A DNA stretch of 64,000 nucleotides from an uncultured Lentisphaerota bacterium (GTDB taxonomy: Bacteria; Verrucomicrobiota; Kiritimatiellia; CAIQIC01): NCBI GenBank assembly GCA_903889245.1, contig CAISWQ010000123.1, forward strand, positions 1 through 64,000, in the 5' to 3' direction. How positions within the stretch are numbered: position 1 is the first letter of the stretch; each line of letters starts with the position of its first letter. The notes under the pieces are model-generated. The model was not told where the DNA came from. It was given only the letters and a program-made list of their open reading frames with translations, and ran no database searches. Shown piece after piece: positions 9,429-62,145 of the stretch. Position numbers and translations under genes: made by a program.

Positions 9429-9476
9429 TTCCAAGGTTTGGAAAACGCGAGGCGGTCGTTTTCCAAGGGTTGGAAA
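9429..9476. repeat. Palindromic array A (2 units), nusG-rplK gap
   Basis: Two copies of the dispersed palindrome: TTCCAAGGTTTGGAA (centre 9436) and TTTTCCAAGGGTTGGAAA (centre 9468), 32 bp apart. They lie inside the transcribed nusG-rplK spacer, so the transcript can form two hairpins just before rplK. Confidence 0.9.
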
Positions 9477-9482
9477 CTGCCG

Positions 9483-10040
9483 CTAGCTAGCCTTTTCCAC
9501 CTGCCAATATTCCAGTTCCACGGGCGCGGTGCGGCCGAAAATCTGCACCGAGATCTTCAGCTTGCCGCGCGTCGGATCCACTTCCTCGATCACACCGGTG
9601 AAGTTGAGGAACGGGCCGTCGGTGATCTTCACCTGCTCGCCCGGCTCGAAGGTGACCTTGGGCTTGACCTTCTTCTCCTTGTCCTCGACCTGGTAGAGGA
9701 TGTGGTCAATCTCGCTCTGCTTCAGCGGCACGGGCTTGTCGCCGCCGATGAAGCCGATGATGCCCTGCGTCTTCTGGTTCGTGAAGAAATTCCACGCGTT
9801 CTCCTCCAGCGTGCCGTCGGCCTTGTAGAGCGCGACGTGCACGAGCACATAGCCGGGGAAGAATTTCCGCGTCTGCGTGGTCCGCTTGCCCTGCTTGACT
9901 TCCGAGACCTTCTCGGTCGGGATCAGGACCTCGTCCACGATCTCCTTCATTTCTTCCAGCCGGATGCGCCGTTCAAGGCTTTCCTTGACCTTGTTCTCCT
10001 GGCCGGAGAGCGTATGCAAGACGTACCACTTCTTTTCCAT
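9483..10040 (-). CDS. nusG: Transcription termination/antitermination factor NusG
   Basis: Binds RNA polymerase through its N-terminal NGN domain and couples it to Rho or the ribosome through a C-terminal KOW domain. The 185-residue product starts [30 protein letters not shown] is the conserved NGN segment (about residues 60-70). The KOW domain is [19 protein letters not shown] (about 130-150). It follows secE by 23 bases, the standard order. Confidence 0.97.
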
Positions 10041-10063
10041 GACTGCTCCAGAACTCGCCGGGA

Positions 10064-10267
10064 TTACCTAAGCACCAGTTTCAGGACACTGTTCAGGACG
10101 AAATCGCTGACGCCCACGAACGCCGAGAGAATGACGACGGACACGATGACGACCACCGTGGACTCCTTGAGTTCCCCCCACGTCGGCCACGAGCATTTCT
10201 TCAGCTCCTGGCGCACCTCGTCGAAGAACGTGCGCACCGCGCCCACCCATGCTCTGATCTTTTCCAT
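10064..10267 (-). CDS. secE: Preprotein translocase subunit SecE
   Basis: Small membrane subunit that clamps SecY in the SecYEG channel. The product is 67 residues from ATG 10267 (MEKIRAWVGAVRTFFDEVRQ). Upstream codons in the same frame run into the tRNA-Trp gene and are not coding. The amphipathic segment with ELKKCSWPTWGELKEST is diagnostic. One membrane helix follows (about 40-62). GGAG lies upstream of the start. Confidence 0.95.
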   Translation of the reverse strand: MEKIRAWVGAVRTFFDEVRQELKKCSWPTWGELKESTVVVIVSVVILSAFVGVSDFVLNSVLKLVLR

Positions 10268-10294
10268 GAATCGTTCTCTCCGGGGCAACGCGGG

Positions 10295-10370
10295 TGGCAC
10301 GGCAGGAGGGACTTGAACCCGCAACCTGCGGTTTTGGAGACCGCCGCTCTGCCAATTGAGCTACTGCCGT
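10295..10370 (-). tRNA. tRNA-Trp(CCA)
   Basis: The reverse strand folds as a 76-base cloverleaf with acceptor stem ACGGCAG/CTGCCGT, anticodon loop CTCCAAA (anticodon CCA), T-arm GGTTCAAGTCC, discriminator G and an encoded 3' CCA. It lies between rpmG and secE, a common position. Confidence 0.97.
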
Positions 10371-10386
10371 ATCGTCCGTGAATCCT

Positions 10387-10539
10387 TTACTTGATTTCGC
10401 GGTGAACGGTGTGCTTGCGCTCCGCGGAGCAGAATTTCTTCAGCTCGACGCGTTCCGTCATCGTGCGCTTGTTTTTGGTCGTCGTGTAGTTGCGTCGCTT
10501 GCACTCCTGACACGCCAACGTAATGATTTCGCGGGGCAT
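10387..10539 (-). CDS. rpmG: Ribosomal protein bL33
   Basis: A 50-residue large-subunit protein, [20 protein letters not shown]..., ending HTVHREIK. The gene is short and reads from ATG 10539 to TAA. The first zinc CxxC pair is present (CQEC), but the second pair normally found in zinc-type bL33 (CPRC) reads CSAE, keeping only one cysteine. It may therefore bind zinc weakly or not at all. It sits in the usual tuf-rpmG-tRNA-Trp-secE order. Confidence 0.95.
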
Positions 10540-10563
10540 GATTCCACCGTTCTCCCGAAGGCC

Positions 10564-11772
<1,209 letters not shown>

Positions 11773-11837
11773 GTTTCTCTCCTGCCGACTCGGCTTGTTG
11801 GTTGTTCCTGTTTCCTAATTTTATTACCGACATCCAC

Positions 11838-11913
11838 TGGAGCCTACGAGCGGGATCGAACCGCTGACCTCGTCCTTACCAAGGACGTGCTCTACCAACT
11901 GAGCTACGTAGGC
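11838..11913 (-). tRNA. tRNA-Thr(GGT)
   Basis: A 76-base cloverleaf on the reverse strand: acceptor GCCTACG/CGTAGGC, anticodon loop TTGGTAA (anticodon GGT), T-arm with GGTTCGATCCC, discriminator T and encoded CCA. It is the first gene after the promoter at 12120-12147 and precedes tuf by 65 bases. Confidence 0.97.
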
Positions 11914-12119
11914 CCGTCCAAAACTCCAGCGTCATCCGCTCATCTGCCCGGCCGCGCCACCCGGCGCACCCGTTTAACGCAAAGCAAAAAAAGAGCGCAA
12001 ACAATCCCCCGCGCTTTTTTCCCGTAACTGAAAAAAGAGCCGGCAGACTGCCTACTCCCTTCAAACTTATGTCTGCGGCACGCTTACAAATGAGGCATCC
12101 ACAACGTGCAGCGCGCGAC

Positions 12120-12147
12120 ACTCTAGCGGACTTTCCCTACCCGTCAA
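12120..12147 (-). promoter_or_regulatory. Probable promoter of the tRNA-Thr-tuf operon
   Basis: The reverse strand has -35 TTGACG (12142-12147), a 16-base spacer and -10 TAGAGT (12120-12125). The 16 bases AAAAAAGTTGTTGACG (12142-12157) are identical to the -35 region of the rRNA promoter at 27225-27240. The A-tract just upstream resembles an UP element. A leader of about 200 bases to tRNA-Thr has no gene. Confidence 0.7.
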
Positions 12148-12223
12148 CAACTTTTTTGAAAATTTTTCCAAGCCCGCGGAAAACAGGCCTCTATCGTTTC
12201 TAAGGGGCTGGGAACACGCGCCC

Positions 12224-14158
12224 TCACCGCGGCGGGGCGACAGGGCGGAAGTGGCGGTGAGTCAGGGTCGGCCAGGTCTGGCCGGTGTCATAAAGATTGC
12301 CCAGCCACAGCGGTTGCGGCAGCCAGACGCGATAGCAGTTGGTTACACTCCACGCGGTACCGGCCGAGGCGTAGTCGCACATCGTGATGGTCTGCGGCTG
12401 ACCCTCGACGGTGGCGGGCACATCGAACGCCATCCACGCGCCGATGCGCGCGGCGGCCTGCGGATTCGGCTTGAGCCGGATGAACGGCGCGGCGCTGCGA
12501 TCCAGCAACGCCTTCGCCTCGATGTTCACCTCCGGCGTCAGGCGGCTATCGAGCGCGAGCACGAGCGGGCCGCGCAGGATCGCCAGTTGGCCGTTGCCAT
12601 CGGGCGCCTTGACGATGCGGCCGCGCAGGTCGGGTACGAGTTGGATGCGGTCGCCACCCTTCCACGTGCGCTGCAGCTTGGCATAACTGCCGGGCTGCAC
12701 CGGCACCGCCTCGCCGTTGACCGTCAGGCTGGTGTTCGCGCTCCACGCCGGGATGCGCAGCGCGAGCGTGAAGGCTTCCGGCTTGGCGAGTTCGAGCACG
12801 ATCTCGATCTTGTTCGCGATCGGATATTCCGTCTGCTGCTTGATCATCACCTTCTGCCCGCCGGGCGTGGCGACCTCCGCCGTTCCGGGAAAATACAAAT
12901 TGACCACCGGGCCTTCGGCAGCGGTCATGACCGCCCACTGCGGCGCAAGCAGCAAGCCGCGCGGGCCGCTGACGACGCAGCAGCTCAACCCGACCTCGTC
13001 GTGCTGCATCAGGCTCGGCACGCGCTCGCCGTTGATGCCGCTGAAATAGGCCCACCAACGGCCGTCCGGCATCTGCGCGGCGAGCAGGCCGTTGTAGAGA
13101 TTGCGCTCGAGCTCGTCGGCGAACCGCACGTCGCCCGTCAGCCGCAGCAACTGGTAGAGGAATTTCATCCACGTGGCGGTGACGCACGTTTCCATCGGCT
13201 GGAACACCGCGGCCGTCTGGTTCGTGTGTCCGCTGCACCAGTGCTCGCCGCGCGTACCGGGGCCGATGATCGTCGTCTCCTGGCTCAACACGCCCTCGGC
13301 CAGCTTGATCGAGGCATTGAGATAGTTCTTCTCGCCGGTGAAGCGGTAGAGTTCGCACAGGCCCTCATAGCACGACATCATTTCGTAGGCCTTGTTCCAA
13401 CGCATGTTCACCGGCGTCACACCCGCGAGACTGTCCTCGATCAGTCGCAGCCCGTTCGTGCATTGCGGCACGTGATGCGAGGGCTGGCTCCACTGCCCGA
13501 CAATGTACTGCGCGTAATCCAGGTACTTCTTCTCGCCCGTCCGCTGATAGAGCAGCACCGTCGGTTCGAGGATGGACGACGCCGCGAGGCCCTTGTGCGT
13601 GCCGATGTCGGCGATGTTCGTCTTGCCCGCGCCGGTCTGCGCGAGCAGCGTATCCATGTGCCGGCTCGCGGCGGCGAGCGTCGGCGCGTCGCCCGTACGG
13701 TCAACGTAGGCCAGCAGGCCGAGCAGCGCGTACTTGCGCCCCCACACGTCCCAACCCTTGAGCCGGTGCTCCGGCTGGCGCGTGCCGAGGTAGCCATCCG
13801 GCGCGGCGGTCGCCACCAGCGCGCGGGCGCCCTCGTCGAGCTTCGCGCGCGTCGCCGCCGTCGGCCGGTAGGCATCGGCCAGCGCGAGCGAGGTGTACCA
13901 CTTGCCCCAGTACTCGCAACGCCAGTCCTTGAACCCCTCTTCCGCCTTGTCGCGGTAGGGCTTCACCAGCGGCTCGACCGGCTGCGCCAGCACGCGGTTC
14001 GCAATGCACTGATCAATCTTCGCGCCGAGCCGGCCCTCAATGCGGACCGCGCCCGCCGCCGGCGGCCGGAAGACATCCGGCGCCACCGGCTGCACCGACC
14101 CGCCCAGCACCGGCGCCGCCAACGCCACCACGGGGAGGATTTTGAGATTCATTTTCAT
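12224..14158 (-). CDS. Secreted GH127-type glycosidase (DUF1680, beta-L-arabinofuranosidase-like)
   Basis: A 644-residue protein with a signal peptide (MKMNLKILPVVALAAPVLGG). The region KDWRCEYWGKWYTSLALADAY and the following alpha/alpha-barrel helices match the DUF1680/GH127 fold. GH127 enzymes use a zinc-bound Glu/Cys3 cluster; here Glu323-Thr-Cys325 and Cys393-Cys394 are in the matching places. A C-terminal beta-domain follows (about 470-644). The family removes terminal L-arabinofuranose or related sugars; the exact substrate cannot be read from the sequence. Upstream in-frame codons were rejected because the signal peptide begins at ATG 14158. Confidence 0.85.
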   Translation of the reverse strand: MKMNLKILPVVALAAPVLGGSVQPVAPDVFRPPAAGAVRIEGRLGAKIDQCIANRVLAQPVEPLVKPYRDKAEEGFKDWRCEYWGKWYTSLALADAYRPTAATRAKLDEGARALVATAAPDGYLGTRQPEHRLKGWDVWGRKYALLGLLAYVDRTGDAPTLAAASRHMDTLLAQTGAGKTNIADIGTHKGLAASSILEPTVLLYQRTGEKKYLDYAQYIVGQWSQPSHHVPQCTNGLRLIEDSLAGVTPVNMRWNKAYEMMSCYEGLCELYRFTGEKNYLNASIKLAEGVLSQETTIIGPGTRGEHWCSGHTNQTAAVFQPMETCVTATWMKFLYQLLRLTGDVRFADELERNLYNGLLAAQMPDGRWWAYFSGINGERVPSLMQHDEVGLSCCVVSGPRGLLLAPQWAVMTAAEGPVVNLYFPGTAEVATPGGQKVMIKQQTEYPIANKIEIVLELAKPEAFTLALRIPAWSANTSLTVNGEAVPVQPGSYAKLQRTWKGGDRIQLVPDLRGRIVKAPDGNGQLAILRGPLVLALDSRLTPEVNIEAKALLDRSAAPFIRLKPNPQAAARIGAWMAFDVPATVEGQPQTITMCDYASAGTAWSVTNCYRVWLPQPLWLGNLYDTGQTWPTLTHRHFRPVAPPR

Positions 14159-14269
14159 GCGCGCATTCTCTGGACGCGCAGAGGAAAAGCAAGCGCCGAT
14201 TCCGGCACGGCGGGATCGGCCGCGGTCTGACGAACGCGGCGACCAGAAAAGCAACCCCCGCCCTCACCA

Positions 14270-14317
14270 TTCCAAGCCTTGGGAAAATTCGGCTGTTTTT
14301 TCCCAAGGCTTGGAAAC
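14270..14317. repeat. Palindromic array B (2 units)
   Basis: Two palindrome units with CCAAGCCTTGG (centre 14277) and CCAAGGCTTGG (centre 14308), 31 bp apart, upstream of the GH127 gene. Just right of it, 14392-14415 is a degenerate octamer tandem (CACTCCAC, CACTCCAT, CACTCCCG). Confidence 0.9.
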
Positions 14318-14425
14318 AGACACGCAGGTGTTCGACAAAAAATGAGGAACGCAGGAAAGGCCGAAACCATCGTCACCATCCACCATCCCAGCACTCCACC
14401 ACTCCATCACTCCCGCTCTTCCGCG

Positions 14426-15500: not shown

Positions 15501-15510
15501 CGGGCTGGTT

Positions 15511-19382: not shown

Positions 19383-21140
19383 TTATTCCTTCTTGTCGCC
19401 CTTTTCGCCGGGGCGCCACTCTTCCTGCTGCTGCATGGCGGCGCCGAGCGCGGCATCGAGCATCCCGCCCATATCCACGATGCTCTCGCCGGGGCGCAGC
19501 CCTTCGAGCATGGACTCATCCACCTTGAACTCTTCGTCGGGCAACTGCGCGGCCTTGATGGAAAGGCCGATGCGGCGCTCGACAGGATCAATTTTGATGA
19601 CGCGGGCTTCCACTTCCTGGCCAGGCTGGAGCACGTCCTTGACCTTCTGGACGCGGTCGTCGCTGATCTGGCTGATGTGGACGAGGCCATCGATGCCTTC
19701 CTCGATCTCGACGAAGGCGCCGAAGGAGGCGAGCTTGCTGACCTTGCCCTTGACGCGCTGGCCGACTTTGTACTTCGAGGCGATCGAACTCCACGGATCT
19801 TCCTGCGCCTGCTTGAGGCCGAGGCTGATCCGCTGCTGCGAGGGATCGACTTCGAGCACGACGGCCTCGACGACGTCGCCCTTCTTGAGGACTTCGGTCG
19901 GATGGTTGACCTTGCGGGTCCACGACATGTCGGAGACGTGGATCATGCCGTCCATACCTTCTTCGATCTCGACGAAGGCGCCGTAGTTGGTGAAGTTGCG
20001 GACCTTGCCGGTGATGCGCGTGCCGATCGGGTACTTGTTCTGGACCTCGTCCCACGGGTTGGATTCGGTCTGGCGGATGCCGAGCGAAATCTTCTGCTCG
20101 TCGCGGTTGACGCCGAGGATGACGGCATCCACAGCCTGGCCGACGGTGAGCACATCCGACGCCTTCGCGACGCGCTTGGTCCACGAGAGTTCGGAGACGT
20201 GCACGAGACCCTCGACGCCTTCCTCGATCTGGATGAACGCGCCGTAGGGCATGACGTTGGTGACGGTGCCGTGGACGCGGCGGCCGACCTGGTAGCGGGC
20301 CTCGATATCGTCCCACGGGTTACGGGTCTTCTGCTTGAGGCCGAGGGAAATCCGCTCCTTCTCGAGGTTGACGTCGAGGATGAGCACTTCGAGCTCCTGG
20401 CCGACCTTGAGCATCTCGGAGGGATGGTTGACGCGGCCCCAGCTCATGTCGGTGACGTGCAGCAGGCCATCCATACCGTTGAGGTCCACGAACGCGCCGA
20501 AGTCGGTGAGGTTTTTGACGAAGCCCTTGCGGATCTGGCCGATCTGGATATCGCGCAGCAGGCCCTTCTTCTGTTCCTTGCGGCGGTCTTCGAGCATCTC
20601 GCGGCGCGAGACGACGAGGTTGCGGCGCTCCTTGTTGATCTTGAGAATCTTGAACTCGAGCGGCTTGTTGAGGTAGGCGTCCGGGTCCTTGACCGGCGTA
20701 ACGTCGAGCTGCGAGCCGGGGAGGAACGCGTCCACGCCGACATCCACGAGCATGCCGCCCTTGACGCGGCCGACGATCGTGCCTTCGATGACGCTGCCCT
20801 CGGTGTAATTTTCCAGGACGCGGTCCCAGTTGCGCTGCTGCTCCGCGCGCTGCTTGCTGACGACGATCTGGCCGTCATCGTTTTCGAGCTGCTCGATGAG
20901 GACCTCGATGGCATCGCCGGCCTTGACGGCGGCGAGGTCTTTGAACTCCTCGCCGGGGATGATGCCCTCGGACTTGTAGCCGATATCCACGACGACTTCG
21001 TTGGAGCGGACTTCGAGGACTTTGCCGCCGACGATGGAGTTTTCCTTGAAGGACTTCAGGGTTTCCTCGTAGCGGGCGGCCATGGCGGCCTTTTCTTCAC
21101 TGATGGGAGCGGCGGGGGCCGCGGCTTTTTTCTTGCTCAT
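19383..21140 (-). CDS. rpsA: Ribosomal protein bS1
   Basis: A 585-residue RNA-binding protein that unfolds mRNA leaders on the 30S subunit. Six S1 OB-fold repeats are visible. The last four share the GxVxxxxxFGAFV pattern (GFVKNLTDFGAFVDL, GTVTNVMPYGAFIQI, GKVRNFTNYGAFVEI, GKVSKLASFGAFVEI), each ending with HVSxxSW or similar. The start is ATG 21140 (MSKKKAAAPAAPISEEKAAM); upstream in-frame codons lack a ribosome site and enter repeat DNA. It has its own terminator and is monocistronic. Confidence 0.96.
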   Translation of the reverse strand: MSKKKAAAPAAPISEEKAAMAARYEETLKSFKENSIVGGKVLEVRSNEVVVDIGYKSEGIIPGEEFKDLAAVKAGDAIEVLIEQLENDDGQIVVSKQRAEQQRNWDRVLENYTEGSVIEGTIVGRVKGGMLVDVGVDAFLPGSQLDVTPVKDPDAYLNKPLEFKILKINKERRNLVVSRREMLEDRRKEQKKGLLRDIQIGQIRKGFVKNLTDFGAFVDLNGMDGLLHVTDMSWGRVNHPSEMLKVGQELEVLILDVNLEKERISLGLKQKTRNPWDDIEARYQVGRRVHGTVTNVMPYGAFIQIEEGVEGLVHVSELSWTKRVAKASDVLTVGQAVDAVILGVNRDEQKISLGIRQTESNPWDEVQNKYPIGTRITGKVRNFTNYGAFVEIEEGMDGMIHVSDMSWTRKVNHPTEVLKKGDVVEAVVLEVDPSQQRISLGLKQAQEDPWSSIASKYKVGQRVKGKVSKLASFGAFVEIEEGIDGLVHISQISDDRVQKVKDVLQPGQEVEARVIKIDPVERRIGLSIKAAQLPDEEFKVDESMLEGLRPGESIVDMGGMLDAALGAAMQQQEEWRPGEKGDKKE

Positions 21141-21180
21141 GTTTTTCCGATCACGGCACGGCGACTCGTTGCGGGCCATC

Positions 21181-21217: not shown

Positions 21218-21391
21218 TTTTCCAGGGCTTGGAAACCGCAGACGCTGGTTTTTCCAAGCCTTGGAAATTTTCGCCCAATTTTTTCCGGGGCCTGGAAATT
21301 TCCACAGGGATTTTTCCAAGGCTTGGGAAAGGAGGGTGCGCTTTGTTCCAAGGTTTGGAAAAAAGGTTGGTTGAATTTCCAACCCTTGGAA
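21218..21391. repeat. Palindromic array C (6 units) upstream of rpsA
   Basis: Six palindromes with centres at 21227, 21259, 21290, 21321, 21353 and 21384, giving spacings of 32, 31, 31, 32 and 31 bp. Intervening sequences differ. With flanking DNA this fills the gap 21141-21504, which holds no gene I can support. Confidence 0.95.
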
Positions 21392-21504
21392 TCAGCCGGC
21401 TGGCGCCGGCGTTACGTCATGAACTTCCTGCAACGGTTATGGGTTACGGGCTGATATTTTATGGCGTGCCGCAGCAGCCCACGTCCGCGGCACGTCAAAC
21501 CGGT

Positions 21505-31132: not shown

Positions 31133-32848
31133 ATGTTTATCACGGGGCGAGTTTTCCAAGGCTTGGAAAATGGCACCCCAGTTTTTTCCAAGGCTTGGAA
31201 ATTTTTCGGCGCTTTTTCCCAAGGCTCGGAAAATTCCGCCGGAGTTTTTCCAGGGCCTGGCTGGCGCAGAGCGCAGCACAGGAATTTTCCCGCGGGATTT
31301 TCCAAGGCTGGGAAAAACCACCCGTTCCACTTTCCAATCCTTGGAAAAATTTTCTTGCTCGCCGCGCTGACGGCAGTGGCCGGCGCGCGGGAGCTGCCGC
31401 TGACCATCCTCTACACGACCGATCTCCACGGACATCTGGCGGGTGTGACCTCGAGGAAGGAGCCGCGCGGCACCGGCGGCCTGCTGCGCTGCGCGACGCT
31501 CATCGAGCAGGTCCGCGCGCAGGAGAAAAACGTCCTGCTGCTCGACGCGGGCGATACGCTGCAAGGCTCGGCCGAAAGCTGGCTTACCGGCGGCCGCTGC
31601 CTGACGCGCGCCATGGAACTGCTCCGCTATGACGCGTGGTGCCTCGGTAACCACGACTTCGACTGGGGCACGGCCGCGCTGACCAACCTGCTCGCCAAGT
31701 CCAAGCTCGATGTGCTCGCGGCGAACATCGCGCCGCCGCTGCCCGGCGTGCAGTCGTGGCTACTCAAGGAAACCCGCGGCGTGCGCGTCGCGCTCATCGG
31801 CCTGACGAATCCGTTCATCCCGAAGTGGACGCGGCCGGAGCTGCTCGGCGACTACCGCTTCGACCGGCCGGTGGAAACGCTCGCGCGCCTGCTGCCGGCG
31901 GTACGCGCGGAGAAGCCCGACGTGATCGCCTTGCTGATCCACGAAGGCTACCGTCCCGCCGGCGACGATGGCGCGAACGAAATCCGCGCCCTCGCCAAGC
32001 GCTTCCCGGAACTCGATGTGATCCTCGGCGGTCATCAGCACGAAGCGCTGCTCGCGCCGACCGGCCTGGGCGTGCTCTATCTCGAAGCCGGCTGCCACGG
32101 GCAGGCCGTCGGGCGCGTGGACCTGCTCGTGGACATTGACCGGCACAAGGTGGTGCGCCGCTCCGCCAGCCTGCTCATCGCGAGCAACGGCGTGCCGGAG
32201 TCGGCGGAGCTGCGGCGGCACTTCATCCGCGACTTGTCGCGCGCCGAGAAGCATCTGGCCGAGCCGGTCGGCGCGGCGGCCGCGGCCATCGCGGCGACCG
32301 GCCCGGTGCGCGGGCAGTCGCCGCTGCAGCAGTTGCTCTGTGCCGCCATCGCAGAAAAAGTGCAGGCCGAGATCGTGCTGCACGGCACGCTCGCGGAGGC
32401 CGGCCTCGCCGCCGGGCCGCTGACCATGCGCGACATCTGGCGCATCGTGCCCTATGAGAACCGCATCGGCGTGGCGTATCTGACGTTGCAGGAAATCCGC
32501 GCGATACTGGAGGAGAATGCGAACGTGCCCGGCGATCACTTCCTCGGCGTCTGGGGGCTGGCCTACGATTTGCGCACCGCCGCCGCGCCCGGCCAGCGCG
32601 TGCATAATCTGCGGCTTGCCGACGGGACCAAGGCGCACGGCAAGAAACGCTATGCGGTCGCCTTCAACAGCCACACGCTCGCCTCCGGCGGCGGGCGGTT
32701 CCCCACCCTGCCCCAACTGATCGCCGAGCCGCGCGCGCGCTTCGCGCTGACAACCAACGACACCCGCGCCGCCGTCGCCGCTTACGTCCGTCAGCACTCG
32801 CCGCTCTACCCAGCCCATCCGTCGCTGGTGAAAATCAGCAGTGAATGA
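31133..32848 (+). CDS. Exported 5'-nucleotidase/2',3'-cyclic phosphodiesterase family enzyme with repeat-derived N-terminus
   Basis: UshA-type metallophosphoesterase. The catalytic domain begins LTILYTTDLHGHLAG (about residue 85), then LLLDAGDTLQGSAESW, GNHDFDWG (Gly172-Asn-His-Asp175) and ILGGHQHE, all metal-site motifs of the family; a 5'-nucleotidase C-terminal domain follows from about 385. The 571-residue frame starts at ATG 31133 with GGGAG seven bases upstream, 12 bases after clpX. Its first ~70 residues are translated palindromic repeats (VFQGLENG, FSKAWKFF, FSKAGKN, FPILGK) leading directly into a signal-peptide-like core KIFLLAALTAVAGA. No closer ATG exists before that core, so the repeats appear to be part of the protein or to separate the old start from it. 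Confidence 0.88.
   Translation: MFITGRVFQGLENGTPVFSKAWKFFGAFSQGSENSAGVFPGPGWRRAQHRNFPAGFSKAGKNHPFHFPILGKIFLLAALTAVAGARELPLTILYTTDLHGHLAGVTSRKEPRGTGGLLRCATLIEQVRAQEKNVLLLDAGDTLQGSAESWLTGGRCLTRAMELLRYDAWCLGNHDFDWGTAALTNLLAKSKLDVLAANIAPPLPGVQSWLLKETRGVRVALIGLTNPFIPKWTRPELLGDYRFDRPVETLARLLPAVRAEKPDVIALLIHEGYRPAGDDGANEIRALAKRFPELDVILGGHQHEALLAPTGLGVLYLEAGCHGQAVGRVDLLVDIDRHKVVRRSASLLIASNGVPESAELRRHFIRDLSRAEKHLAEPVGAAAAAIAATGPVRGQSPLQQLLCAAIAEKVQAEIVLHGTLAEAGLAAGPLTMRDIWRIVPYENRIGVAYLTLQEIRAILEENANVPGDHFLGVWGLAYDLRTAAAPGQRVHNLRLADGTKAHGKKRYAVAFNSHTLASGGGRFPTLPQLIAEPRARFALTTNDTRAAVAAYVRQHSPLYPAHPSLVKISSE
31152..31347. repeat. Palindromic array D (6 units) inside a coding region
   Basis: Centres near 31161, 31193, 31223.5, 31255, 31307 and 31339. 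Spacings are 32, 30.5, 31.5, 52 and 32 bp. All units are read in frame by the nucleotidase gene. Confidence 0.95.
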
Positions 32849-36025: not shown

Positions 36026-36038
36026 GCGACGCACGGTT

Positions 36039-36211
36039 TTTCCAAGCCTTGGAAAAAGCCCCCTGACCTTTTCCGGGGCTTGGAAAAATCTTCACGAAAT
36101 TTTCCAAGCCCTGGAAATAAAAGCGCGAAAAGTTCCCAGCCTTGGAAAAAATTCCGCGAAACTTTCCAATGTCTGGAAAAACCGGCGCCCCGCGTTTCCA
36201 ATCCTTGGAAA
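36039..36211. repeat. Palindromic array E (6 units)
   Basis: Centres 36048, 36078, 36109, 36140, 36171 and 36203, spacings 30, 31, 31, 31 and 32 bp. It lies between convergent genes. The last pair (TTTCCAATGTCTGGAAA, then TTTCCAATCCTTGGAAA) also ends arrays G and I. Confidence 0.95.
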
Positions 36212-36263
36212 CCGCGCCGCATTGCGCCGCTGGCCCTCTCCCGTTGTGCGCCTGTTCAACCTC

Positions 36264-37632: not shown

Positions 37633-39074
37633 CAGGGCGTGGCGGCTTTCTTGTTGCCCTTCCCCTTGGCCTTGCGCTTGGGTTCGGCGGCGGCGGCGGA
37701 CGCGGGCTCCGGATACTGGCCCTTGTCATCCGTGTCCTTGATCCACTGTTCGAGCGCGGCGCGCAGCCGCTTCAGCGCGGCCTGATGCTCCGGCTGCTGC
37801 GACGCGGCGAGGTTGTTGATCTCCCACCGGTCGGCGTCGAGGTCATAGAGTTCCTCGTCGGGCCGGCGCGGCTGGCACAGGAAAGCCTGCGCCGGCGTCA
37901 GCTTGCCCTGCGCGTGCAGTTCCTTGAGCAGGTTCCAGACGGGATACTGCCGCTCCTTGTAAGCATTCGGCGCGAGGAACGGAACCTCCGGCGTGAAGTT
38001 GCGGATGTAGCGGTAGCGCGCGTCGCGGACCGAGCGGATGCGCATCGCGGTCTCGTCGCAGCGGTCGCGATAGCCGAAGACGAACTCGCGCGGCGGCGCG
38101 GCCTGCGGCCCGAGGAACGGGCGACCTTCCATCTTCGGTGGCAACGCCGCGCCCGCGAGCGCGAGCATCGTCGGCGCAAGATCAATGCTGTGGCGCAGAC
38201 CGCTGTCCACCGTGCCGGGCTTGCAGCCGGCGGGCGCCGGGAAATTCTTCGGCCAGCGGACGATGCACGGCACATGCAGCCCTTCCTCGTAGCAGAACTG
38301 CTTGCCGCGCACGTGCGCCTGCCCGTTATCGCCGAAGAACACGACGAGCGTGTCATCGGCCAGCCCGTCCTTTTCCAGCGCCTGCAACACGCGGCCGATC
38401 TTCCGGTCCAGCTCGCTGACATCATCGAGATAGGCCGCCCAATCGGCGCGCGCGACCGGATGATCGGGATAATACGGCGGCAGTTCCACCTTGGCCGGAT
38501 CGGCTTTCTTCGGGCCGTGGAATGTGCGGTGGGTCTCCTTGAAATTGATCTGCGCATAGAACGGCTGATGGCCCTTGAGGGCGCTCCACTCCTTGGAGTC
38601 GAAGGGCTGGCCCTCGTAGGAGAAATTCCAGTCCGTCTTGCCCGTGCCGTTGAAGCCGCAACTCTCCGGCAGCGTCACCAGGTTCGCGGTGAAGTAGCCC
38701 GCCGGCCGCAGCCAGTCGGTCAGCACGCGCACGCCCTCCGGCAGCTTGTAGCCATCGGTGCGGTGCGAGCGATGCTGGTGCGCGCCGATGGTCGTCGCGT
38801 ACATGCCGGTCATGAACGCCGAGCGGCTCGGCGAGCAGACGTGGCCGCTGTAGAAACGGGTGTAACGCACGCCCCCGGCGGCGAGCCGGTCGAGGTTCGG
38901 CGTCCAGACCTCCTGCGTGCCGTAGCAGGCGAGGTGCGGGCCGAGGTCCTCGGCGATCAGCCAGAGCAGGTTCGGCCGACGCCCGGCCTCCGCCGCCAGC
39001 GCCGGGGCGGTCGCGGCGGCGGCCACGCCCAGGCCGGCCAGCTTGAGGAAATCACGACGGGTGGTTGGCTTCAT
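37632..39074 (-). CDS. Tat-exported sulfatase 1 (CSPSR)
   Basis: Formylglycine-dependent S1 sulfatase, 480 residues. The N-terminus MKPTTRRDFLKLAGLGVAAA is a twin-arginine signal. Calcium-site residues lie in LLWLIAEDLGPHLACYG. The formylglycine motif is Cys80-Ser-Pro-Ser-Arg (HVCSPSRSAFMTG), and the second metal site is VVFFGDNGQAHVRGK. The Asp-Asn-Gly and heparan N-sulfatase-like layout suggest a glycan substrate; exact specificity is not readable. A Lys/Ala-rich tail ends KAKGKGNKKAATP. It overlaps the upstream sulfatase by ATGA. Confidence 0.93.
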   Translation of the reverse strand: MKPTTRRDFLKLAGLGVAAAATAPALAAEAGRRPNLLWLIAEDLGPHLACYGTQEVWTPNLDRLAAGGVRYTRFYSGHVCSPSRSAFMTGMYATTIGAHQHRSHRTDGYKLPEGVRVLTDWLRPAGYFTANLVTLPESCGFNGTGKTDWNFSYEGQPFDSKEWSALKGHQPFYAQINFKETHRTFHGPKKADPAKVELPPYYPDHPVARADWAAYLDDVSELDRKIGRVLQALEKDGLADDTLVVFFGDNGQAHVRGKQFCYEEGLHVPCIVRWPKNFPAPAGCKPGTVDSGLRHSIDLAPTMLALAGAALPPKMEGRPFLGPQAAPPREFVFGYRDRCDETAMRIRSVRDARYRYIRNFTPEVPFLAPNAYKERQYPVWNLLKELHAQGKLTPAQAFLCQPRRPDEELYDLDADRWEINNLAASQQPEHQAALKRLRAALEQWIKDTDDKGQYPEPASAAAAEPKRKAKGKGNKKAATP

Positions 39075-40612
39075 GGTTTGGCTCCCTTGGCTTTCTTGTT
39101 TTTCCTGCCGCCAGCAACGGGTCGCACGGCACGCTCGTTATCGGCGGGCGAGAACGACCGCGGTGCCACATCGTTCGCCAGCAGTTCCGCGACAAGCGGA
39201 TCGCGCATCTCCTCGCCCCACTTCGCGAGCAATGCGCGGTGGCGCAACAGCACCTCGCGGCTGGCGGGATCGGCGGCGAGATCCTGCGTCTCGCCGGGAT
39301 CGTTCTGCAAATCCACCAGCGACTCGCGCCGCAGACCGCGGCCATAGACGCAATATTTAAAGCGGTCAGTCCGCACCATGCGGCCGGCCATCTCCGGCTT
39401 GAGTCCCTCCACCATGCCGGTCTGTACCATGTGGTTTTGCACGACGACAAACTCGCGCCAGTCGCCAACGCTCTGGCCGAGCGCGAGCGGCAGCAGGCTG
39501 CGGCCGGGCAGCGTACGCGGCGCGGCGATGCCCGCGGCGTCGAGCAGCGTTGGCAGGATATCCAGACCGGTGTTGATCAACTTGTCGCTGATCGCCGCCG
39601 GCGTCCTGCCGGGCCAGCGGAGGATCAGCGGCACGCGGGCCGACTCCTCGTAGAAGACGGTCTTCTGGTTGAAACCGTGCGCGCCGGCGCAATCGCCGTG
39701 GTCGGCGGTGAACACGATCAGCGTGTTCTCCGCGAGCCCGGTCTTCTTCAGCGCGGCGAGCAGCTTGCCGATCTCGGCATCCACCAACTCGGTCATGCGG
39801 TAATAGCCCCAGCGGTGCCTGCGCCAGTCATCGGGTGTGAACTGGCCGACGGGGAACGGCCCGTCATCCACCTGATAGGCGCGGCGGATCAGCGTCATGC
39901 CATCGGGCTCGTTCACGGGCGGCGCGAGGTTCGCCGGCGGCGGCGGCAATTTTTCCGGCGCGGGCGGCGGGCCGATCTCGCCGCAGTTGAGCGTCTGCTG
40001 GCGGCCCGCGAGCCGGCGCGCCCACTCGCAGATGTTGTGCGGGTTGAGGTAGCTGGCGACGAGCAGGAACGGCTTGCTATGCGGCTGCGCGAGGAATTTT
40101 TCCGCGCCGGCGGTGACGCCCATGTCGTGGCCGCCAGGACTCTTCTCCGAGAACATCTCGAAGCCGTGCGCCTTGGGGTCGCGCGGGTTGAAGTTCAGAT
40201 GCCACTTGCCCGCATAGGCCGTCTCGTAGCCAGTGTTGCGAAAGTAGGTGCCCAGGCACGGGAACTTCTGCGGGTCGAGCTGGCCCTTCACATCATTGCT
40301 GGTGACGCCCGTCTCGTGCGGATACCGGCCGGTGAAGACCGAGTTGCGCCACGGCATGCACAGCGGGTTCGAGCTGTAGGCGCGCGTGCAGAGCAGACCG
40401 CCGGCGGCGAGGCCATCCATCGCCGGGGTGTTGATCCACTGCCTGCCCATCCGGCAGCTCATCACCTCGGCGAACTGCTGGTCGGTGATGATGAACAGGA
40501 TGTTCGGGCGTTTTTCCAAACCTTGGAAAACCGGGGCCGCGCTTTTTCCAAGGCTTGGAAAACCGAGCGCGCCCAGCCCGGCCAACTTCAGAAATTCACG
40601 GCGCTGCAACAT
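39071..40612 (-). CDS. Tat-exported sulfatase 2 (CMPWR) with in-frame palindromic repeats
   Basis: 513-residue S1 sulfatase. The signal MLQRREFLKLAGLGALG is twin-arginine-like. It is followed by FPSLGKSAAPVFQGLEK, the translation of two palindrome units (40512-40562), before the sulfatase fold starts RPNILFIITDQQ. The formylglycine cysteine is Cys85 (PLCMPWRNSVFTGRYPHETG). VFTADHGDCAGAHGF carries metal ligands. Lys-rich tail GGRKNKKAKGAKP. Substrate unknown. Confidence 0.92.
   Translation of the reverse strand: MLQRREFLKLAGLGALGFPSLGKSAAPVFQGLEKRPNILFIITDQQFAEVMSCRMGRQWINTPAMDGLAAGGLLCTRAYSSNPLCMPWRNSVFTGRYPHETGVTSNDVKGQLDPQKFPCLGTYFRNTGYETAYAGKWHLNFNPRDPKAHGFEMFSEKSPGGHDMGVTAGAEKFLAQPHSKPFLLVASYLNPHNICEWARRLAGRQQTLNCGEIGPPPAPEKLPPPPANLAPPVNEPDGMTLIRRAYQVDDGPFPVGQFTPDDWRRHRWGYYRMTELVDAEIGKLLAALKKTGLAENTLIVFTADHGDCAGAHGFNQKTVFYEESARVPLILRWPGRTPAAISDKLINTGLDILPTLLDAAGIAAPRTLPGRSLLPLALGQSVGDWREFVVVQNHMVQTGMVEGLKPEMAGRMVRTDRFKYCVYGRGLRRESLVDLQNDPGETQDLAADPASREVLLRHRALLAKWGEEMRDPLVAELLANDVAPRSFSPADNERAVRPVAGGRKNKKAKGAKP
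40512..40562. repeat. Palindromic array F (2 units) inside a sulfatase gene
   Basis: TTTTCCAAACCTTGGAAAA (centre 40521) and TTTTCCAAGGCTTGGAAAA (centre 40553), 32 bp apart, both in frame between the Tat signal and the mature domain. Confidence 0.95.
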
Positions 40613-44886: not shown

Positions 44887-44967
44887 TTTTCCAAGGCCCG
44901 GAAAATCTTCCGTGAAATTTTCCAATGCCTGGAAAAACCGCCGGTTCCCATTTCCAATCCTTGGAAA
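44887..44967. repeat. Palindromic array G (3 units)
   Basis: Centres 44896, 44927 and 44959, spacings 31 and 32 bp, between convergent genes. Confidence 0.95.
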
Positions 44968-45117
44968 CTGTAGCGGCGGCCTATGGCCGCCGACGGCGAC
45001 CACAGGTCGCCGCTACAGAAGAAGATGCCGGGGCGGACTTGTCCGCCGGCGGCGGAGATCCGGCCTACAAATGGGCTTGGTCACCAGCTTCTGTAGGCCG
45101 AGTCTCTGACTCGGCGG
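44968..45117. repeat. Cluster of CG-rich hairpins
   Basis: CTGTAGCGGCG (44968-44978) pairs with CGCCGCTACAG (45008-45018) around inner hairpins GCGGCCTATGGCCGC and GGCGACCACAGGTCGCC. GGCGGACTTGTCCGCC follows, then GTAGGCCGAGTCTCTGACTC (45093-45112), related to 21181-21204. Confidence 0.8.
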
Positions 45118-53453: not shown

Positions 53454-53466
53454 ATTTCGTCTCCGT

Positions 53467-57033: not shown

Positions 57034-58461
57034 TTACAAGTCGTTCTTTTCGGCAAAACGCAAGCTCCGGGCAACAAAGAAGGCGGGTATGGTGCCGAGG
57101 AAGGCACTTATCCCCATGAGGACAAACAATGGCGTCATTCCAAAGTAGTCGTGCAAGGAGCCGACTACGAAACTCAACACCCACCCCATGATACTCGCAC
57201 ACATGACCCCAATGCCCACCACCAGGCCAACACCCCGTGGCGACACAGCCCCCGCAATGCAGGCATAGAGATTAACAAGCAATGCCTGATAGGCGGCAGT
57301 CGCAAGTGCCGCGAAAGTGATAAACATCATCGGCTTGCTCGCGATAGCCATCCCAAGGCTTGCCAGCAACAACAGAATACCGCTGACAGGGATTACTATC
57401 GAACGCAGCGCAGCCAGTCGAAATCCCGACAAGGCCGGGATATCTGAAGCAAGTGCTCCCACCAAAGCGCCTCCGATACCAGCGGCGCTGATTACAACGG
57501 CAAACTGTGATAAATCAGTCAGCGCGACAGCAAATGTACGTTGCATGAAATGTGGCACCCAAAATACAAGCAGATAATTCAGTGGCGCGATCAGGAGATG
57601 CGCCAGCACATAAAGCCAACTGCGCAGTTTTCCAAGCGCACAGAAACCCTCGAACATGGTCTCCGTTCTAACGCTGGATAAGCATGGCCGGCGCCACGCC
57701 CACAACAACAGGCCACTCCAGAGCAGGAACAATACGAACAAGACGCCTGCCGTGACAAAAAACACGCTACGCCAGCCTGACTGCACTGTCATGGCCGACA
57801 CCACCCCAGGTCCCACGAAAGCGGCGTTAAGCGTTCCATATAACACCATGGCCACTGCGATCGCTTGCAGTTTACGCGGCACACACTCGCTCACCGCTTG
57901 CATCGCCGCTGGCAGAGCCCCGCCGGAGGCTAATCCAAGCACGATTCTGCCGACGATTAGCATAAGCAGGCCGCCCGCGAAGCCGGTAATCAAAGTCGCC
58001 ATCAGACCTCCGACGAGAACAATTCCATAAATCCAGCGCGTGCCGATAAGGCAACACAGCACACCCATGAGCAAGGATCCGATGATGTACGGAACCAGAA
58101 AAGCACCACTCACTTTTGCGTATTCGATATTGGAGAAGCCGAATTCCTGTCGTAACACAGGAGAAAGGATGCCTAACTGTTGGCGGGACAGGTATACGAC
58201 AAAGCCAGCAAGGAGAATTAAGGCCAGTAACAGCCAGCGATGCAAGTCCTTGGAGCCCATATCAGTTTCTTGATTTGTCAGAGGTGAACTGGCTGCCGGT
58301 ATTCCCGCCTCCATTACCGGTGCCCCCGTAACTGTCGAAGATGCAGTCGCAGCGGCTGGCAAAATCAGTGGACGCTGGCATGTGGGACAGGCAATTTGCA
58401 GGCTTTCTTGCCGCTCTTGAAACTCAAGCCGTTGCTGACAGTGTGGACACGAGTATTTCAT
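57034..58461 (-). CDS. MFS transporter with N-terminal zinc ribbon
   Basis: 475 residues from ATG 58461 (AAGGGG seven bases upstream). The N-terminus MKYSCPHCQQRLEF...IACPTCQRPL is a CxxC/CxxC zinc ribbon, then a Ser/Thr/Ala linker (about 35-70) and about 12 membrane helices of an MFS carrier resembling hexuronate/sugar-acid transporters (GILSPVLRQEFGFSNIEYAK). The ribbon fused to a carrier is unusual. Base composition of about 57010-58560 is visibly less GC-rich than both flanks, which points to acquisition. Confidence 0.82.
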   Translation of the reverse strand: MKYSCPHCQQRLEFQERQESLQIACPTCQRPLILPAAATASSTVTGAPVMEAGIPAASSPLTNQETDMGSKDLHRWLLLALILLAGFVVYLSRQQLGILSPVLRQEFGFSNIEYAKVSGAFLVPYIIGSLLMGVLCCLIGTRWIYGIVLVGGLMATLITGFAGGLLMLIVGRIVLGLASGGALPAAMQAVSECVPRKLQAIAVAMVLYGTLNAAFVGPGVVSAMTVQSGWRSVFFVTAGVLFVLFLLWSGLLLWAWRRPCLSSVRTETMFEGFCALGKLRSWLYVLAHLLIAPLNYLLVFWVPHFMQRTFAVALTDLSQFAVVISAAGIGGALVGALASDIPALSGFRLAALRSIVIPVSGILLLLASLGMAIASKPMMFITFAALATAAYQALLVNLYACIAGAVSPRGVGLVVGIGVMCASIMGWVLSFVVGSLHDYFGMTPLFVLMGISAFLGTIPAFFVARSLRFAEKNDL

Positions 58462-58542
58462 GGCATATCCCCTTATTGAGACTTGCTTGCACATGCCCAC
58501 CGTGGGAGTGCTGTGCTTCGATCCCTGCATGATACGGAAAAA

Positions 58543-58791
58543 TCATGTATCCATGTTTGCACCCTGACCAGTTAAAGGCAAGCCAGCCCTTTTCCCCGTC
58601 AATAGCGGGAGCATCACGGGCTCGCCGGCGCGCGCGGTCAGCATCAAGGCCGCCAGCACGCCGGCTTTTCCAAGGCTTGGAAAAATTGCGGCGATTTTTT
58701 CCAAGGCTTGGAAAATTTTCCGTGAAATTTTCCAATGTCTGGAAAAACCAGCCGTTCCCGTTTCCAATGCTTGGAAAAGTCTCCGCATCAT
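58543..58791 (-). pseudogene. Truncated N-terminus of an exported protein with palindromic repeats
   Basis: 82 codons. ATGATG overlaps the GH106 stop (ATGA). The first half is translated array H (FQALETG, FSRHWK, FQALEK, FPSLGK), then a hydrophobic signal-like core AGVLAALMLTARAGEPVMLP, then a stop after about 25 further residues. It looks like the start of a secreted enzyme whose body is gone, possibly removed when the lower-GC transporter region arrived. It may instead be non-coding. Confidence 0.5.
58666..58777. repeat. Palindromic array H (4 units)
   Basis: Centres 58675, 58706, 58737 and 58769; spacings 31, 31 and 32 bp. The last two units nearly repeat those of arrays E and G. Confidence 0.95.
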
Positions 58792-61700
58792 TTCGTCCAT
58801 TCGACGACGCGCGCCGAACGCAGCATGACCGGGCCGAGCAGGCCCGAGGGCAGCAGCGGCGAGTCGGGCTTGTAGGGATTGACCGTGGTCCAGGCGACGC
58901 GTTCGGCCTCGGGCTTCGCGAGGTCGCCGATCAGCCGGTTCGGCCACAGGTTCGTCACGCGCACCTCGAGCTTGTTCGCGCCGGCCTTGGCCGTGCCGGT
59001 CAGGTTGACGCGGAACGGCGGTTTCCAGAGCACGCCCAGCGACTGGCCATTGAGGACGACCTCGGCGAGGTTCTTCACCGCGCCCAGGTCCAGATGCAGT
59101 TCGAGCCCGCCGGCGAGGCGCTCCGCCGGCAGTGTGAATTCGCGGACATAGGTGGCGGTGCCGGAGAAATGCCGGATGCCTTCCTCGGGGCGCGCGGGCC
59201 ACGAGACCAGCGCGGCGAACTCGGCCTGCGCCGGCGCACCGAGGCGCGGCGGGAAGTGGACCTGCCACGGACCGGTCAGCTCGCTGGGCGCGGGTACTTC
59301 CGCGGCGCTGGCTTTGCACTCGCGGCCGGACTGCGTGCGCGCAGTCCAGTTACCACCCTGCCATGCGCGCAGCAGTGGCTGGCCATTTTTCCCGCCGACC
59401 AGTTCCGCCGTCGCGGCGTCGAGCGCGGGCGGCTGCAGCGGATCGGCCGCGCCCGCCGGCTCGCGGAAGAAGACGAACACGGAGCCGCAGGGATCGAAGA
59501 CCAGCGGCACGATGGTGCGGCCGCCTTCCACCCGCCACGCCGGCGCGGGTTCGATGCGGCCCGTATCGGGATGCCAGAACTCGGGCTTGCGGCCGGTGAC
59601 GCGGAACGAGGCCTGGATGGTCCCGGTGCGTTCGCTGCCGTTGCACACAAAATACAAATCCGCGTCGTCCAGCTTCCGGTGGATGTAGTTGGGCGCCGCG
59701 TTCGTGTCGCCTGTCCAGAGAAAGTCTGGCGCCACGTTCAGCTTCGCGAGCGCCTCCGCGACCGTGCCCGAGCTGACCACGCGGCCGGAACCGCCCCAGA
59801 CTTCGTCGGCGATGCGCCGCACCTCGGCATCGCACGCGGGATGACCGGCGAGGCTCGGCGAGGCGGCCGGGCGCGGGCCGATCACCGCGGCGCCGGCGCC
59901 GACGAGCTCGCGCACCTTGCGCGCGATGGCGGGCGTCATGCGGTCGCTCTCCGGCAGCACGAGTGCCGCGTAGCTGGTGCCATCGGGCAGCGCGAGGCGG
60001 CCGGCCTGCACGCTCATCCGCGTGAGCAGGACTTCCGCGCCGCAGCCATCGTAGTCGAAGCCGGCGGGCGGCGTGGGCTTGAGCTGCTCGCGCGCGACCA
60101 GCTCGTTGGGCGCGCCCTCGCCCACGTAGTAGCAGAGATCGCCGACGAAGCGGCCCTGCTGCAGCAGATGCTGGCAGCGCGCGAGGTAGGTGAGCCACGC
60201 CGCGCCCGGCTCCCACCACGTCTGCGTGCGCTCGAAGTTGATACCCCACGGCCCCATCGTCATGCCGGGCTGGCGGTCGGGCCACGGCTGGTGCGCGTAG
60301 CGGTGGAAGACGAGCTGGTTGAGCCCGAGGCAAAAGGCGTTATCGCCGAGCGCCTTCAACGAGAACGGATCGCTGCGCCAGCCGGCCTTCTCGGCGCCGG
60401 CGGTGAACGACTCCGCCGCGACCAGCCGCTTGCCGTAGACGTGCGCGGCGGCCGCGGCCTCCTTCACGTCCTGATGGCCGTGCAGCCAGAACTCGCCCAT
60501 CGGGATATCGGTCCGCGCCTTGCACTGGAACTGGTCGGCCACGGTCGGCATGCCGATGCCCACCGCCTCGCCGATCAGCAGCATGTTGTGCGCGTGCAGC
60601 CGGTCGCGGAGCAGCGCGTAATGATTTTCCGCGACGAGGTCGGCGATTGTGCGGCGCAGATCCCAGAGGAAGCGCTCGGTCTCCTCCACGCTGCCGATGA
60701 CACAGCCCGCGAGTGCGGGCAGCCACGGCTGCGGATCGTAGCCGCGCAGGCGCTGGAACTCGGCGCGCAGGTCGGGCGTCCAGTTCTGGCAGTAGGCCTC
60801 CCAGCTATCCACCAGCATCAGCTTCAGGCTCCGGCCCGCGAGCGGACCGGCGTCCTTGATCAGCCGGCCCATCAGGCCATCGAAGAACTGGTTGACCGCC
60901 GCGCGGTTCAGCTTGTCGCACTCGAGGCCCGTGCCCTCCGGCGGCGCGGGCTTGTTGACCATGCCCGTCGGCGTATGGCCGAGCCGCAGGATCATCCACT
61001 CGCCCGCCGGCACCTCCCACTCCAGGCGGCCGCCCGCATCCATGCGCGCGGTGAGGTCGTGCACGCGCTCCCGCGGAAGCGCCGCCGGCGCGGGCCGCTC
61101 CGCGCCGCGCGCGGGCTTCTCCAGGCGGCCGGGCGCGACCGCGGCCTTCTGCTCGAACCGCTCTAGGCGCGACCCGCCCAGCTCCACCTCGCCGAGGCCG
61201 ATCTCCTTGGCGAGGAACTGGTGGCCGCGCGTGATCAGGATGCGCACGAACTTCGCGCGGACCGGCGCGAAGGAAACCGAGGCCGAGGGCATCGTCGGGA
61301 AGTTTGCGAGCTTCCGGAATTTTTTCCCGTCGTCGCTGATCTGCAGCTCCGCCGCCCATGGATAAAGCGGGAACGTCACCGTGCGCAGCCGCGCCGAGCC
61401 GAAGCGGACCGGCGCGGCAAACTCGAACTGCACCTGGCCCGGCCCGTGCGTCGCCGGCAGCGGGAACCACGCGACCGTGTCGGCGCGGCCATCGATGAGC
61501 TTCGCCAGCTCGGCGGCGGGCAGCGAGCCGGTGAGGCGCGGCTTGAGCGTTGCGAGCGGCGGCGGCTCGGCCGGGTCGGCGGGCACGGCGAAGACCGCGA
61601 CGTCGCGGTAGAACCCGTAGTTGGTGGGCGGCTGCGGGAGCGTCTCGCGGAAGCGGCACGGCCCGGTCACCCGCACCGCGCTCTTCGTGAGCTCCTGCAT

Positions 61701-62081
61701 CGCGTGCTCCGGCTTCACCCACGGCCCGCCCGACTCGCTCCAGCCGGGACAACCGTGGACGGTGATCTCGAGCCCGAGCCGCTCCGCCTCGCTGAACGCG
61801 TGCTGCATCAGCGCGTACCACTCCGGCCCCAGCACCTTGGCCGGGCCCGGCGCCTCGCCGTAGGCCACGTTGAAGATGTGCGCGCCGCCGAGCCCGATTT
61901 TTTTCATCGCCTCGAGGTCGGCGGTGATGCCCTCGCGCGTGATGTTGCCGCTCATCCAGTGCCACCACGTACGCGGCCGCGCCGCGAGCGGCGGCGCCTG
62001 AAAGTCTTCCTCCAGCCCCGCCGGCGACAGCAACGGGAGCTGCAACAACAAGCCGCAAGCCAGCCACGCGCTACGTTTCAT
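58788..62081 (-). CDS. Secreted GH106-type alpha-L-rhamnosidase
   Basis: 1097 residues with a signal peptide (MKRSAWLACGLLLQLPLLSP). RPRTWWHWMSGNITREGITA followed by LEAMKKIGLGGAHIF is the GH106 entry. The barrel segments ITVHGCPGWSESGGPWV, LMLVDSWEAYCQNWTP and MLLIGEAVGIGMPTVADQFQ follow. A galactose-binding-like insertion lies near 245-310, and a C-terminal sugar-binding beta-sandwich includes EVVLNGQSLGVLWKPPFRV and NLWPNRLIGD. It would release terminal rhamnose from plant or algal polysaccharide. Confidence 0.88.
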   Translation of the reverse strand: MKRSAWLACGLLLQLPLLSPAGLEEDFQAPPLAARPRTWWHWMSGNITREGITADLEAMKKIGLGGAHIFNVAYGEAPGPAKVLGPEWYALMQHAFSEAERLGLEITVHGCPGWSESGGPWVKPEHAMQELTKSAVRVTGPCRFRETLPQPPTNYGFYRDVAVFAVPADPAEPPPLATLKPRLTGSLPAAELAKLIDGRADTVAWFPLPATHGPGQVQFEFAAPVRFGSARLRTVTFPLYPWAAELQISDDGKKFRKLANFPTMPSASVSFAPVRAKFVRILITRGHQFLAKEIGLGEVELGGSRLERFEQKAAVAPGRLEKPARGAERPAPAALPRERVHDLTARMDAGGRLEWEVPAGEWMILRLGHTPTGMVNKPAPPEGTGLECDKLNRAAVNQFFDGLMGRLIKDAGPLAGRSLKLMLVDSWEAYCQNWTPDLRAEFQRLRGYDPQPWLPALAGCVIGSVEETERFLWDLRRTIADLVAENHYALLRDRLHAHNMLLIGEAVGIGMPTVADQFQCKARTDIPMGEFWLHGHQDVKEAAAAAHVYGKRLVAAESFTAGAEKAGWRSDPFSLKALGDNAFCLGLNQLVFHRYAHQPWPDRQPGMTMGPWGINFERTQTWWEPGAAWLTYLARCQHLLQQGRFVGDLCYYVGEGAPNELVAREQLKPTPPAGFDYDGCGAEVLLTRMSVQAGRLALPDGTSYAALVLPESDRMTPAIARKVRELVGAGAAVIGPRPAASPSLAGHPACDAEVRRIADEVWGGSGRVVSSGTVAEALAKLNVAPDFLWTGDTNAAPNYIHRKLDDADLYFVCNGSERTGTIQASFRVTGRKPEFWHPDTGRIEPAPAWRVEGGRTIVPLVFDPCGSVFVFFREPAGAADPLQPPALDAATAELVGGKNGQPLLRAWQGGNWTARTQSGRECKASAAEVPAPSELTGPWQVHFPPRLGAPAQAEFAALVSWPARPEEGIRHFSGTATYVREFTLPAERLAGGLELHLDLGAVKNLAEVVLNGQSLGVLWKPPFRVNLTGTAKAGANKLEVRVTNLWPNRLIGDLAKPEAERVAWTTVNPYKPDSPLLPSGLLGPVMLRSARVVEWTK

Positions 62082-62097
62082 GATGCTCTCCTCATGG

Positions 62098-62145
62098 TTC
62101 CAAGCCTTGGAAAATCCAGCGCCGGTTTTTCCGAGGCTTGGAAAA
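62098..62145. repeat. Palindromic array I (2 units) upstream of GH106
   Basis: TTCCAAGCCTTGGAA (centre 62105) and TTTTCCGAGGCTTGGAAAA (centre 62136), 31 bp apart, 17-64 bases before the rhamnosidase start. Confidence 0.93.

Follow-up and report, generated by a model that had tools for sequence, protein, structure and literature searches.

The 64,000-nt stretch of DNA analysed here (the window; positions 1 to 64,000 of contig CAISWQ010000123.1) stems from an uncultured Lentisphaerota bacterium of the Kiritimatiellia, hereafter the host, and carries a 19-bp palindromic unit, TTTTCCAA-N3-TTGGAAAA, in nine arrays and one single unit. We show here that these palindromes are dispersed over the host genome and those of its class, that neighbouring units stand whole helical turns apart, that the units occur in lineage-specific sequence dialects, that they are located mainly between genes and that they are constrained as DNA. 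Hence, it is rather probable that the arrays are cooperative DNA-level binding platforms for a putative homodimeric, sequence-specific protein of the Kiritimatiellia that co-evolves with its sites. From this pattern we infer the protein, its cooperativity and an architectural role, including the nucleoid organiser proposed in the initial annotation of this DNA.

Helical phasing of neighbouring units

The window has 24 copies of the exact core of the unit, TTCCA-N5-TGGAA, where shuffles would give 0.03; over the whole host genome, 5.26 Mb in 125 contigs, the count is 1,808 compared to 8 for the reversed pattern. Distances between exact cores less than 130 bp apart in 744 kb of host DNA are 31 bp (63 cases), 32 bp (50) and 62-65 bp (15), followed by 83, 93, 94 and 125 bp. 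Thus, the spacing of 30-32 bp initially described for the window reappears as a sharp peak genome-wide, and the repeat is not restricted to this contig but is found throughout the genome and the class. Among 280 neighbour distances in 2.05 Mb of DNA from relatives, 277 deviate by no more than 1.5 bp from whole multiples of the 10.5-bp turn, and the half-turn windows are empty; part of these loci were fetched for holding a 31/32 pair, so that the fair test is given by the distances outside the 29-34 class, 32 of 35 of which fit whole turns compared to a third by chance, related arrays not being independent. A two-turn class of 21-22 bp recurs in several lineages and can be mixed with three-turn spacings within one array, for example 22, 31, 31, 30, 22. 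Further whole-turn spacings are 43, 53, 62-64 and 83-84 bp. At L096 (near 6508-6580) and L136 (near 2600-2640), units overlap or are about 17 bp apart, off the usual spacings.

Each 19-bp palindrome would bind one dimer, with half-sites about one helical turn apart, and the three-turn (31-32 bp), less often two-turn (21-22 bp), spacing would bring dimers next to each other on one face of the helix, where cooperative binding is possible. The initial annotation had already suggested a single helix face and a dimeric DNA-binding protein; this idea gains support from the whole-turn spacings, from half-sites that vary independently and from dialects that keep frame and phase.

Architecture of the unit

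The most constant positions of the unit are CC/GG at +/-4 and +/-5, with TT/AA outside, and the CC/GG half-sites sit about one turn apart, as for a helix-turn-helix (HTH) dimer. Beyond +/-9 the information is at most about 0.06 bit (+/-10 to +/-13), and no conserved tag or border lies outside the palindrome. In 368 host units, selected by consensus similarity and hence slightly biased against double changes, left and right halves depart from the consensus independently, with compensated pairs at or near expectation at every position. Since the half-sites vary independently, we regard the unit as the DNA site of a dimer and not as an RNA stem. RNA hairpins, serving as terminators or stabilisers of messenger RNA, had been raised initially as an alternative. 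Every unit is indeed foldable and many arrays lie right behind stop codons; however, the absence of compensation between the two halves opposes this explanation, whole-turn spacing would be meaningless for RNA, arrays are also present in divergent gaps, and a T-run before and an A-run after the stem are the opposite of an intrinsic terminator. RNA hairpins are therefore extremely unlikely. A long hairpin pairing neighbouring units was rejected as well, the central triplets of neighbours being no more complementary than shuffled ones.

Constraint on the DNA is also evident where arrays are translated. One genome (G001) has 14 sulfatase genes with a twin-arginine translocation (Tat) signal and an in-frame two-unit array between signal and catalytic domain, at a spacing of 32, which is not a multiple of three. 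Among these genes, pairwise identity falls from 0.85 in the units to 0.53 in the spacer and 0.41 in the flanks. The units use codons that are rare in the genome (genome usage in brackets): AGG for 10 of 10 Arg (2%), CCA for 12 of 14 Pro (11%), CTT for 10 of 11 Leu (9%) and GGA for 13 of 14 Gly (8%). Genes that had lost their units would be missed in this set, because units were detected by consensus similarity; when 14 Tat-signal sulfatase genes of G001 were chosen by protein alone, giving a slightly different set, 13 had units in the first 260 nt. Rare codons and conserved units together therefore argue for selection, or repeated restoration, acting on the DNA and not on the peptide. The in-frame peptides FPRLGK...FQALEK that open many sulfatases are thereby explained as DNA sites rather than protein motifs. 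At L152-L154 of the same genome, Tat-signal sulfatase genes follow one another in a run, and almost every one has a two-unit array encoding this peptide pair after the signal peptide.

Sequence dialects

Across lineages, dialects of the unit share one frame and one phasing: CCAAGSCTTGG, CCAATSATTGG (many lineages), CCAY...RTGG (genera g5, g7 and g10 of family f4), CCAYTCAATGG (G049), CCATGCTATGG (G051) and CCGACGCTCGG (f21). In other lineages TTCC-N7-GGAA and the phase are retained and the interior is altered. Such dialects are what drift in the specificity of a putative binding protein, with sites following, would be expected to give: the sequence preferred by the protein would shift between lineages and the sites would track it, the phase staying fixed.

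Occurrence in the Kiritimatiellia

A scan of 84,980 species for the phased pair gave at least 100 matching rows. Among the matches listed, most are labelled Kiritimatiellae or, in agreement with that group, as bins of Lentisphaerae, Verrucomicrobia or "uncultured" bacteria, and the class name Kiritimatiellia for array bearers is based on these record labels. One record labelled Firmicutes bacterium ADurb.Bin467 (L077, MWAC01000309.1) holds a Kiritimatiellia-type array; the bin has probably been mislabelled or is mixed. When the phylum was searched for the CCAA variant of the phased pair, 29 of the 97 genomes in the window's class had it and the 192 genomes outside the class all lacked it. The looser TTCC-N7-GGAA pair is present in 44 of the 97, with a maximum of 1,040 pairs in the host, and in 10 of the 192 with a single match each; its reversed control gave 0 in every genome except one. 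The phased palindromes are a feature of the Kiritimatiellia that is absent from about half of the class. A seeming 2-Mb site-free gap in the closed chromosome of G121 (12 pairs) disappeared with the generic pattern (99 pairs), whose positions among the matches listed run through 2.98 Mb. A search of plasmid records for similar DNA found none, and literature searches found neither TTCCAAGGCTTGGAA nor any account of repeats of this kind in Kiritimatiella or Verrucomicrobia.

The roughly 1,800 dispersed copies and the lineage dialects resemble uptake sequences, and almost every tested genome has ComEC, as would suit a DNA-uptake signal spread by molecular drive (similar to DNA uptake sequences or uptake signal sequences, DUS/USS). 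However, array-free genomes have ComEC equally and it was not found in array-bearing G003, which led us to reject it as a partner; to our knowledge, phased multi-unit palindromic arrays are not among the features of known uptake signals. We consider this explanation very improbable.

Spacers and the spread of arrays

About a quarter of the spacers in the 744 kb of host DNA fall into a few families (TTTCCGYGAAA; ACCRCCGGTTCCC), and the mutual similarity of the remaining ones is no better than that of column-shuffled spacers. The initial statement that the spacers differ in sequence thus applies to most of them, but not to this quarter. Some arrays align end to end, the alignments ending at unit edges with unrelated flanks. 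Because of the shared spacers and these whole-length alignments, part of the arrays must have arisen by copying. A selfish non-autonomous mobile element recognised by a transposase, similar to repetitive extragenic palindromes and bacterial interspersed mosaic elements (REP/BIME) or to miniature inverted-repeat transposable elements (MITE), would account for such ends, for the turnover of copy number and array content between congeners and for arrays on phage-like contigs; the transposition complex would then be what requires the phasing. Y1_Tnp, the family of REP-associated tyrosine transposases (RAYT) that the initial annotation had proposed to look for, does not track the arrays, having no match in array-bearing G020 and G041 and two weak matches in the host with its 1,808 copies. 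Both this distribution and the lack of a conserved tag or border outside the palindrome oppose the REP/BIME-like alternative; moreover, most spacers are unrelated, two alternative spacings exist, single units evolve within old coding genes, and no recurring transposase lies beside arrays among the sampled neighbours. A mobile element is thus unlikely, though less so than the other rival explanations considered.

Kiritimatiellia-type arrays occupy non-coding stretches of the phage-like contigs L284 (3034-3330), L285 (2786-2977), L304, L322 and L330, some with decayed units; those of L284 and L285 adjoin terminase-like genes. In G121, longer arrays near 703.7, 2576.5 and 2945.8 kb are alike and similar to those of L284 and L285, perhaps representing three related prophages.

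Position relative to genes

Based on our own codon-usage gene calls, coding sequence makes up about 88% of the DNA, yet gaps of 60-1500 bp contain 100 of the 145 host arrays. Counted by orientation, 62 of 201 tandem gaps are occupied, as are 21 of 42 convergent and 16 of 56 divergent ones, nearly always by a single array. Density is highest in convergent gaps, which hold no promoter (2.16 per kb, compared to 1.15 per kb in divergent gaps), and arrays in tandem gaps are closer to the upstream stop codon in 43 of 63 cases (p = 0.005). This placement is more in keeping with boundary or architectural sites than with promoters, and it stands against operators of a global transcription regulator, for example one for many sulfatase and polysaccharide-use genes. 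Operators would agree with the units in 13 of the 14 sampled sulfatase genes of G001 and with the arrays at the beginning of several sulfatase genes of the host; the sampled genes beside arrays, however, are of mixed housekeeping function, and operators are in our view distinctly doubtful. No recurring gene suited as an autoregulated binding protein was seen among these sampled neighbours. In the host and three congeners, 2-5 units with diverged spacers occupy the orthologous gap before the 5'-nucleotidase gene, which in the window is the place of the array at 31152; G004 has none there.

The proposed binding platforms would thus occupy about a third of intergenic gaps in all orientations, often just past a stop codon, and some coding linkers. 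Because they occupy gaps of all orientations, a chromosome-wide role is suggested: most likely a nucleoprotein that organises the nucleoid or marks gene boundaries (insulating, roadblock), and less likely a regulator of one gene set. The more specific idea of a class-specific chromosome-organising system, in which an abundant dimeric protein sits on hundreds of phased gene-boundary arrays and protein and site dialects co-evolve, is plausible but falls somewhat short of an even chance.

Several observations weigh against binding platforms of this kind. Within a single genus G097 has arrays and G031 and G048 have none; such near relatives manage without them, so that the function is non-essential within the class. 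Common descent of part of the spacers shows that some arrays were copied as blocks. A strict alternation of 31 and 32 bp along arrays was inconsistent between data sets and had to be dropped. Finally, no binding protein was found: none of Y1_Tnp, HTH_ParB, ComEC and Phage_rep_O tracks the arrays. HTH_ParB is represented by one strong gene per genome, with or without arrays, and no second ParB-type gene was detected. Phage_rep_O was included because viral contigs hold iterons of like spacing in O-type initiator genes; a search of 45 genomes gave no match above the cut-off, and the family is missing from array-bearing genomes. The viral contigs in question (L261, L279, L287 and L288) have TTCCC-N5-GGGAA at 31-32 and 23 bp in genes for phage replication protein O, probably as lambda-type origin iterons.

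Arrays in the window

A scan of the window recovered all nine arrays and the singleton of the initial annotation in their places (Table 1). Their spacing is regular, as noted there, at 31 or 32 bp throughout; the lone 52-bp step belongs in fact to a distance of 83 bp (31 + 52) that is interrupted by a decayed unit near 31255. An open frame from the ATG at 31133 traverses this array into the 5'-nucleotidase gene, and the array at 40512 is read in frame as FPSLGKSAAPVFQGLEK ahead of the sulfatase domain. The array ending at 44968 is immediately followed by a second dispersed repeat (TGTAGCGGCGGCCTATGGCCGCC...; 44968-45022), copies of which at 88-98% identity are found in many places of G002 and G003. 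An isolated core match within a gene, TTCCATCGGCTGGAA at 13190-13204, is probably a coding coincidence unrelated to the arrays.

Table 1. Palindromic units and arrays of the window
Feature	Position	Strand	Spacings (bp)	Context
Array, 2 palindromic units	9427..9477	.	32	tandem gap
Array, 2 units	14268..14317	.	31	tandem gap
Single unit TTTTCCAATCCCTGGAAAA	19313..19331	.		
Array, 6 units	21218..21393	.	32,31,31,32,31	flanked by S1-domain protein gene (19383-21179) and 5S rRNA gene
Array, 5 good units and 1 decayed (~31255)	31152..31348	.	32,31,(31+52),32	
Array, 6 units	36038..36212	.	31,31,31,31,32	convergent gap, stop codon 12 bp before
Array, 2 units	40512..40562	.	32	5' end of sulfatase gene (39071-40612, minus)
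Array, 3 units	44887..44968	.	31,32	convergent gap, stop codon 3 bp before
Array, 4 units	58666..58778	.	31,31,32	tandem gap
Array, 2 units	62096..62145	.	31	tandem gap

Comparison with known systems

If binding platforms are the right explanation, dedicated, phase-locked sites for a protein would number from tens to almost two thousand per genome in about half of a poorly cultured class, a site density rarely seen in bacteria. The dialects would then be a natural experiment on the joint change of a DNA-binding protein and its genome-wide sites, and cooperativity would be directly testable through the two- and three-turn spacings.

Several known systems share single traits with the arrays. The lambda-O type replication iterons of the viral contigs have the TTCC-N7-GGAA frame and a 31-32/23 spacing within coding Phage_rep_O genes. 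However, these mark one origin per phage, while array-bearing genomes are without Phage_rep_O. The sites of the nucleoid-occlusion proteins Noc and SlmA and the parS sites of ParB are likewise dispersed palindromes, of 16 bp for Noc and ParB, bound there by dimers, as we infer here, and a half-site of the Noc site, ATTTCCCGGGAAAT, resembles the palindrome unit. In contrast to these, the Kiritimatiellia sites are about ten times more numerous, form arrays and have a 3-bp insert between the halves, and no extra ParB-family copy was found in site-bearing genomes. Like REP/BIME sequences, they are hundreds of dispersed, mainly intergenic palindromes, often clustered and with lineage-specific variants (PMC2817692, PMC3733652). 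None of the defining REP/BIME features tested was found, neither a conserved terminal tetranucleotide of the GTAG/CGTC type nor a compensated, covarying stem-loop nor an association with RAYT through Y1_Tnp; whole-turn phasing is found instead.

The nearest published phenomenon are the tandem repeats of constant length and variable sequence in Bacillus, which measure 52 nt and 20-21 nt and were suggested to bind a protein polymerising on DNA (Subirana and Messeguer 2021, PMC8161180). Both have a fixed period near whole helical turns, 5 and 2 in Bacillus, and a variable sequence, here 31/32 bp with mostly unrelated spacers; the Bacillus repeats also contain short conserved motifs, often with the reverse in the same repeat, and are partly conserved between strains (PMC8161180). 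In the Kiritimatiellia, by contrast, likeness within an array does not extend over the whole unit of repetition, a strong palindrome alone being shared between differing spacers, and short arrays, each of 2-6 units and present in hundreds of places, follow a three-turn period with a two-turn alternative, in dialects across one class of another phylum.

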